Part shown: positions 7,186 to 56,125 of the stretch, one piece after another
How positions within the stretch are numbered: the first letter of the stretch is position 1
How the letters are laid out: every line of letters begins with the position of its first letter
Assembly (NCBI RefSeq): GCF_020405225.1
Contig: NZ_CP084472.1
Location: forward strand, 1,302,001 to 1,366,000
DNA from: Natrinema sp. DC36
Lineage (GTDB): Archaea; Halobacteriota; Halobacteria; Halobacteriales; Natrialbaceae
Direction of reading: 5' to 3'
DNA length: 64,000 bases
Translations under genes and position numbers: made by a program
Notes under the pieces: generated by a model
Databases searched by the model: none
Seen by the model: only the letters and a program-made list of their open reading frames with translations
What the model was told of the DNA's origin: nothing

Positions 7186-7301
7186 GGGGGAGCGTACGCA
7201 CTCGAATGGTTTTCCCCTTGCTGATTCACTCCGAGCGAGCGCGGTGAAGAGCCAGTTGTTGACTGAGCAGGGTGTTCGGTAGTGAGTTCGATGAACGACG
7301 T

Positions 7302-7619
7302 GTCCTGCTATCGTGGCAACAGGGAATCGCCACGCCCTCCCCAGCCGATTTCTCCTCACGGACGCTTCGCGTCCGTTCGGATGGTTCGCGGGACCGTCGG
7401 TCCCGCGCTAACGCTCGTTCACTTCGTTCTCTCGCTCATCCACTGGAAGACGCAAAGCGTCTTCCAAGCAGTCACTCGCTACACTCGTGACGACCTCGCA
7501 CGACTTCGGACCGCGGGTCACCGGTGGTTCGCGGCTCCCTGCGGTCACCGCTCACATTATCGAGGCCTTCACTTCGTTCAGGCCTCGCAGTTCACCGCGG
7601 CCCAGCGCGCGCCACCGCA
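7302..7619. repeat. Structured dispersed repeat, copy A
   Basis: 318 bp, largely identical in unpaired segments to 55767-56125. It is built of consecutive hairpins: 7312-7317/7329-7334 (CGTGGC/GCCACG), 7358-7365/7369-7376 (ACGGACGC/GCGTCCGT), 7387-7395/7399-7407 (CGCGGGACC/GGTCCCGCG), 7444-7453/7457-7466 (TGGAAGACGC/GCGTCTTCCA), 7471-7475/7487-7491 (GTCAC/GTGAC) and 7561-7568/7580-7587 (CGAGGCCT/AGGCCTCG). Between the copies several stems differ by compensating changes. No conserved reading frame survives both copies. It occupies most of the 487-bp gap between rnhA and the gene that follows it. Identity as RNA gene, MITE or REP-like element is undecided. Confidence 0.8.
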
Positions 7620-7672
7620 CTCTGGACGGTCGGTCCGGAATGAGAAACGTACCTGCTCTGACTTGAGCGATC

Positions 7673-55766: not shown

Positions 55767-56125
55767 GTCCTGCTATCGTGGCAACAGGGAATCGCCACAC
55801 CCTCCCCAGCCGATTTCTACTCACGGGCGCTGCGAGGCGGTGAAACCGCCTCGACGGTCGCGGCGCGTAGCGCCGCGCTCTGCCCGTTCGTATGGTTCGC
55901 GGAACCTTCGGTTCCGCGCTAACGCTCAGTCACTTCGTTCCTTCGCTCATCCACTGTCAGAGCAAGCTCTGACAAGCCTTCGCTCACGAGTTCGCGAAGA
56001 CCTCGCACGGCTTCGAGCCGCGGTTCACAGTGGTTCGCGGTTCCCTGCGGTCACTGCTCACACCATCGAGGCCCTCACTTCGTTCAGGCCTCGCAGTTCA
56101 CCGCGGCACAGCGTGCGCCACCGCA
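55767..56125. repeat. Structured dispersed repeat, copy B
   Basis: 359 bp. Same order of hairpins as copy A (7302-7619), with stems at 55778-55782/55794-55798 (GTGGC/GCCAC), 55898-55906/55910-55918 (CGCGGAACC/GGTTCCGCG), 55955-55963/55966-55974 (TGTCAGAGC/GCTCTGACA), 55978-55983/55994-55999 (CTTCGC/GCGAAG) and 56067-56073/56087-56093 (CGAGGCC/GGCCTCG). Where copy A has one hairpin at 7358-7376, this copy has GGGC/GCCC closing two inserted perfect hairpins (55834-55852 and 55859-55877). It fills the 546-bp gap between the convergent SDR and tmcA genes. No coding function is proposed. Confidence 0.8.

Follow-up and report, generated by a model that had tools for sequence, protein, structure and literature searches.

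The nearest described systems are the PATEs and SMRs of Haloquadratum walsbyi and the bacterial REPs, and the repeat analysed here lacks the transposase links of these systems that we tested. PATEs are haloarchaeal, short, non-coding and palindromic, occur in many copies without evident terminal inverted repeats, and contain smaller nested repeats, SMR-A elements being inserted in PATE palindromes (PMC3119063). Our repeat resembles them in all these respects. However, PATE ends are related to IS605-type transposons, whereas we found here no Y1 transposase and no core-bearing TnpB gene, but replacement of the interior at fixed sites and signatures of recombination; the two are set apart by description and transposase links, not by sequence comparison. 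The REP, BIME and REPIN sequences of bacteria, accompanied by RAYT, are also extragenic, hairpin-forming and mosaic in composition, with about 100 copies (PMC2817692, PMC3116915). They have a size of 20-40 nt, as against 120-370 nt between the cores of our repeat, which in addition shows a multi-helix frame with class-wide covariation and no RAYT-type gene; its preference for convergent sites is a feature from the present study.

In integron attC sites, conserved boxes flank a variable hairpin, which folds on one strand. The same arrangement is seen in our repeat, but no gene-cassette array and no attC boxes were recognised, and it is the hairpin itself that is exchanged. The structured RNAs of Rfam share a covarying multi-stem architecture with it. 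Yet no family matches at gathering or relaxed thresholds and the best sub-threshold match is at chance level (E=0.24), so that membership in Rfam was rejected; the first-pass annotation had likewise recognised no named element. No published description of this repeat was found in the open-licence literature.

The window analysed is a stretch of 64,000 nt on the 4.11-Mb chromosome of a Natrinema-related haloarchaeon, whose genome (G000) comprises 5.10 Mb in 7 contigs. Two copies of a dispersed repeat had been noted in it, copy A at 7302-7619 and copy B at 55767-56125, and both are present in the sequence with the common stretches and stems quoted for them. The repeat is far more numerous than that: its 22-nt 5' core GCCACRCCCTCCCCARCCGATT has 99 matches in the genome with up to 3 mismatches and none for the reversed-pattern control, which excludes chance, and the 3' core has about 98 (control, 14). 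All 99 copies are chromosomal and none lies on the other six contigs (p about 5e-10 versus random placement over all contigs). Along the chromosome the copies are unevenly spread, with 29 of 99 below 2.1 Mb (p about 1e-5). In a sample of 242 haloarchaeal genomes, 88 contain the 5' core when up to 2 mismatches are allowed; they represent 36 of 73 genera, and the number per genome runs from 0 to 93. When 84,980 species genomes were scanned for the pattern, at least 120 stretches were returned, and among the matches listed all are haloarchaeal. Spread by plasmids or viruses was rejected because carriage there is almost nil: a single record among 72,556 in the plasmid collection, a 987-kb replicon, and one contig in the viral collection.

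As the first-pass annotation had stated, no reading frame survives. Interior lengths are even over the modulo-3 classes (33/25/28), and no copy lies inside a gene predicted by our simple codon-usage script, of which single calls may be wrong. By the same predictions 40 copies lie between convergent, 42 between tandem and 16 between divergent genes; convergent sites are enriched, since they make up 40 of 98 gaps with the element but 34 of 224 element-free intergenic gaps (p=1.3e-6). Some copies lie head to head in pairs, their 5' cores about 80-150 bp from each other (L010, L111, L060, L040 and L203; in our genome at C1:2821644/2821795 and others), and at least one such pair is kept between two species (L010/L111).

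Comparison of the copies revealed a fixed frame holding exchangeable parts. In the orientation of the first-pass annotation, the order is an outer arm of about 45 nt, the 5' core, a stem H1 closed by helix P1, an ATCC...CTCGC linker, a second stem H2, the 3' core and an outer arm of about 50 nt. The element is thus wider than the box drawn earlier, arms adding about 45 nt on each side. Both arms are weakly conserved (identity between random copies about 0.59). Upstream of the core the arm is genus-specific in Halorussus (e.g. CCGCACAGCACCGCAACCGCGG), Haladaptatus and Natronococcus loci, which suggests concerted evolution within lineages. The frame consists of the two cores and the two stem bases, P1 and P2, and encloses an interior of 60-310 nt of nested hairpin cassettes. 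In minimal copies the interior measures about 60-70 nt; the extra length of the others comes from cassettes placed in H1, the linker and H2.

Copy A is located downstream of an rnhA-like gene on the minus strand, and its counterpart in N. thermotolerans adjoins a gene annotated as rnhA operon protein. We assigned its features, and those of copy B, to the minus strand. Its outer 5' arm (7256-7301) is of the Natrinema type, conservation in copies of this genome starting about 50 nt before the core, and its 5' core (7302-7350; GTCCTGCTATCGTGGCAACAGGGAATC and GCCACGCCCTCCCCAGCCGATT) is common to several genera and reads AATCGGCTGGGGAGGGCGTGGC... on the structured strand. Stem H1 (7347-7440) is closed by P1 (GAT at 7347-7349, ATC at 7438-7440) and contains an inserted double-hairpin cassette (about 7351-7412) with the closing triplet TCC/GGA and a second hairpin at 7387-7395/7399-7407. 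The middle cassette (7442-7493) belongs to the GGAAGACGC class, as defined by comparison of 86 copies of this genome, and forms hairpins at 7444-7453/7457-7466 and 7471-7475/7487-7491; minimal copies hold only ATCCCTCGC at this position. It is followed by H2 (7510-7602; ACCGCGG ... ACCGCGG) with an inserted cassette CACCGGTGG...GGCCTCGCAGTTC, by the 3' core CAGCGCGCGCCACCGCA (7603-7619), which forms P2 by pairing with CTCGC[AG]C, a stretch that follows the middle cassette, and by the outer 3' arm (7620-7668), delimited on the conservation profile as weakly conserved. Copy B, whose flanking genes appear convergent from our reading of the sequence, has the same plan: a 5' core at 55767-55815 (GCCACACCCTCCCCAGCCGATT at 55794-55815), an interior at 55816-56108 with a long double-hairpin cassette in H1 (closing triplet TAC/GTA), a middle cassette of the GTCAGAGC class and a cassette in H2, and a 3' core CAGCGTGCGCCACCGCA at 56109-56125.

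To the proposal that stems change by compensation, the collected genomic copies gave a divided answer. We aligned 63 minimal copies from several genera on a structure set by hand: 92.4% of stem cells are paired, against 75.7% after shuffling, with 220 doubly changed paired cells against 81. The covariation score is 0.469, while slid versions reach at most 0.098; shuffling loses the relatedness between copies and sliding keeps it, and copies within one genome exchange sequence and so are not independent. As in a structured RNA, covariation thus exceeds both the shuffled and the slid controls. Compensatory changes are found in P1, which changes from GAT/ATC to GAC/GTC, in the module closing triplets, which covary three ways (TGC/GCA, TCC/GGA or TAC/GTA in 43 of 49 cases), in H1, in H2, whose pairs show up to 6 pair types, and in P2, which is 99.4% paired. 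On the reverse complement H1 forms a ladder, with tandem GA/GA mismatches at steps 1, 3 and 5 and covarying complementary dinucleotides at steps 2, 4 and 6 (118, 119 and 91 perfect, against shuffle means of 51, 29 and 25). Stem 3, in contrast, does not follow the stepwise compensation first proposed: TGGAAGACGC and TGTCAGAGC belong to two discrete classes of cassette, both recurring in many copies, and one class has been exchanged for the other.

The folded strand is the minus strand, opposite to the one written in the first-pass annotation. This is supported by the compensatory changes, in which wobbles are G.U on that strand. On the given strand, the third pair of P1 is T-A in 170 cases, C-G in 24, C.A in 8 and T.G in 4 (Fisher p about 1e-20, relatedness ignored), and its C.A is U.G on the minus strand. 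Similarly, one-sided changes in P2 give 38 G.U cells on the minus strand and 2 unpaired cells, every standard one-sided change being a G.U there. Folding energy was dropped as an argument: the minus strand is the stronger in 135 of 135 cases, but shuffles give -15.3 of the -17.6 kcal/mol, so that the asymmetry is mostly base composition. RNAalifold favours an alternative pairing of 5' GCGCGCGC with 3' GGGYGUGGC. The minus-strand core AATCGGYTGGGGAGGGYGTGGC (e.g. window 7329-7350) has G tracts that resemble a two-layer G-quadruplex, with variable Y positions between them. The element may act as RNA or as single-stranded DNA.

We searched the flanks of sites A and B in 29 genomes of the genus. 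Site A is occupied, with differing interiors, in G018, G021, G001, G006, G007, G008, G010 and G013; it is broken in G015, reduced to a remnant in G014 and G118, and absent in the others. At site B, G018 has the element, G005 a truncated form and several genomes a 3' remnant. At site A the core is kept across species whose intergenic flanks no longer align, and the kept cores at sites A and B are not an ascertainment effect, since these copies were found through their flanks. In G015, the site A element (L250) is interrupted by about 1 kb, apparently, by eye, with an acetyltransferase-like gene. Over 32 orthologous pairs, identity is 0.88 in the 5' core, 0.95 in the 3' core and 0.51 in the interior, compared with 0.84, 0.93 and 0.51 for non-orthologous pairs; many of the 32 have one copy from the set of named loci fetched by exact core, among which core invariance is partly by construction. 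Interiors at the same locus in sister species are therefore no more alike than those of random copies. In L190 and L117 the flanks and 5' halves are nearly identical, whereas the interiors differ. Elsewhere, a copy of our genome (L301:17048-17506) has as counterparts 9-10 kb of other DNA in G021 and G015 and about 86 bp in G010, which suggests that sites of this type are variable spots.

Conversely, interiors are shared between copies whose arms are unrelated. Three pairs within the genome (L062/L039, L064/L065 and copy B, L036, with L031) have interiors 96, 96 and 90% identical and arm identities of 0.54-0.75, near the background; in a fourth (L029/L063; interior 0.92) the arms are also alike (0.76 and 0.82). 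The nearest relative found for the interior of copy B lies at C1:130711-131081, with 90% identity over 293 nt and unrelated arms. The middle cassette that copy X carries is identical in copy Y, 8 kb from it, and is missing in the G018 orthologue e2. Crossing-over between copies was also seen. In region L302, 3.2-11.4 kb of our genome are inverted relative to G018; both breakpoints of this 8-kb inversion lie in oppositely oriented copies, and both alignments overlap by about 76 bp at the 5' core, a shared stretch to which the crossover was mapped. Where the junction is readable in G021, G010 and G015 it matches that of G018, so the inversion is most simply the derived state in our genome. It is the only one found in the regions compared, one other cluster (L303) being collinear. 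Near-identical interiors with non-homologous flanks within one genome, together with crossover between copies, are the marks of a repeat driven by gene conversion. Gene conversion as the cause of interior turnover is thus well supported, though inferred, and the stem 3 contrast between copies A and B most likely reflects whole-cassette exchange by recombination. As first proposed, the element is dispersed, structured and non-coding, with real covariation, but the unlike stems of A and B are mainly whole-cassette replacements, not products of stem-by-stem selection. On balance, and with modest confidence, we favour a REP-like, strand-structured, chromosomal intergenic repeat that is reshuffled by ectopic homologous recombination and gene conversion.

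A rival explanation is that the minus strand is transcribed into a functional family of structured RNAs, regulatory or protein-binding in role, which is maintained at many loci and tolerates the cassettes as expansion segments. Strand-specific G.U wobble and multi-helix covariation across genera, the near-invariance of AATCGGYTGGGGAGGGYGTGGC on the minus strand and the persistence of the site A core speak for such a family. However, tandem copies show no orientation bias to their flanking genes (23 vs 19), and no conserved promoter-like block was seen by eye upstream in the conservation profiles, which together argue against an RNA element borne on mRNAs. Moreover, within a single genus some species have 0 copies and others up to about 99, and copies have been deleted at orthologous sites, so that we consider this explanation possible but unlikely.

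Slightly more doubtful still is that a transposase acting in trans moves the repeat as a non-autonomous element of PATE/IS605 or MITE type, the cassettes then being small mobile hairpins of other kinds inserted in a nested fashion. The high number of copies, their patchy occurrence, palindromic content and lack of coding capacity agree with this, PATEs and SMRs of comparable properties are described in Haloquadratum (PMC3119063), and similar double-hairpin cassettes are found at different positions within the frame when copies of our genome are compared. The REP/MITE-type candidate named at first is right as to a high-copy, extragenic, palindromic repeat. But the whole genome has no match to PF01797, the controls being detected, so the Y1 (HUH) transposase, including the REP-associated type, was rejected as mobiliser, and IS200/REP-type mobility would be left without a visible enzyme. 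TnpB elements were rejected as parents: ten of the 11 TnpB matches lie on other contigs, and neither core is found within about 1.5 kb of any. In about 0.52 Mb of this genome, none of the cassette types searched for occurs outside the element, seeming outside matches of two palindromic types being the same sites on the other strand. No terminal inverted repeats were recognised, and the consensus of the arms shows no clear inverted repeat either. Sister-species sites without the element have decayed or remodelled intergenic DNA, so that neither a clean empty site nor a target duplication was recovered. The near absence from plasmid and virus collections also counts against such an element. Finally, it is improbable that the repeat is a chromosome-organising or recombination-initiating site, in which hairpins and a G-rich core (a possible G-quadruplex in high K+) would stall forks or bind a protein and breaks would be repaired from other copies: chromosome-only placement, core G tracts of little variation, separated by variable Y positions, and the recombination signatures would fit, but several sister species have zero or few copies.

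For the REP-like repeat that we favour, the conserved cores would provide the short homology on which ectopic gene conversion and crossing-over act in recombination-proficient, typically polyploid cells, and cassettes would circulate among the roughly 100 copies as a result of this core-mediated exchange. Gene conversion is very efficient in polyploid haloarchaea, as established in Haloferax volcanii (PMC8223754, PMC11276520). More tentatively, the element may matter as folded single-stranded DNA exposed in replication or repair, like REP or IS605-type ends, and may be largely selfish or structural, tolerated mainly between convergent genes. Against this reading, only one inversion turned up in the regions compared, no clean empty site or target duplication shows the ends of the element, no Y1 transposase is present, and fast divergence of the arms from lack of constraint may mimic the signature of conversion. 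That covariation is strong across genera also suggests that selection is at work beyond a passive, selfish persistence.

A more far-reaching reading, which we regard as rather unlikely, is that of a docking site: class-wide in haloarchaea, a conserved frame folding as a single strand would let about 100 chromosomal loci exchange hairpin cassettes in a combinatorial way, and the frame itself, with its tandem G.A stems and G-rich core, would be selected to promote recombination. If so, these genomes would contain a built-in recombination network and not a passive repeat. The family is a large structured haloarchaeal repeat family absent from Rfam. Its one-strand covariation makes the question of RNA versus single-stranded DNA directly testable, and the family offers a natural way to read ectopic gene conversion and inversion in usually polyploid organisms.
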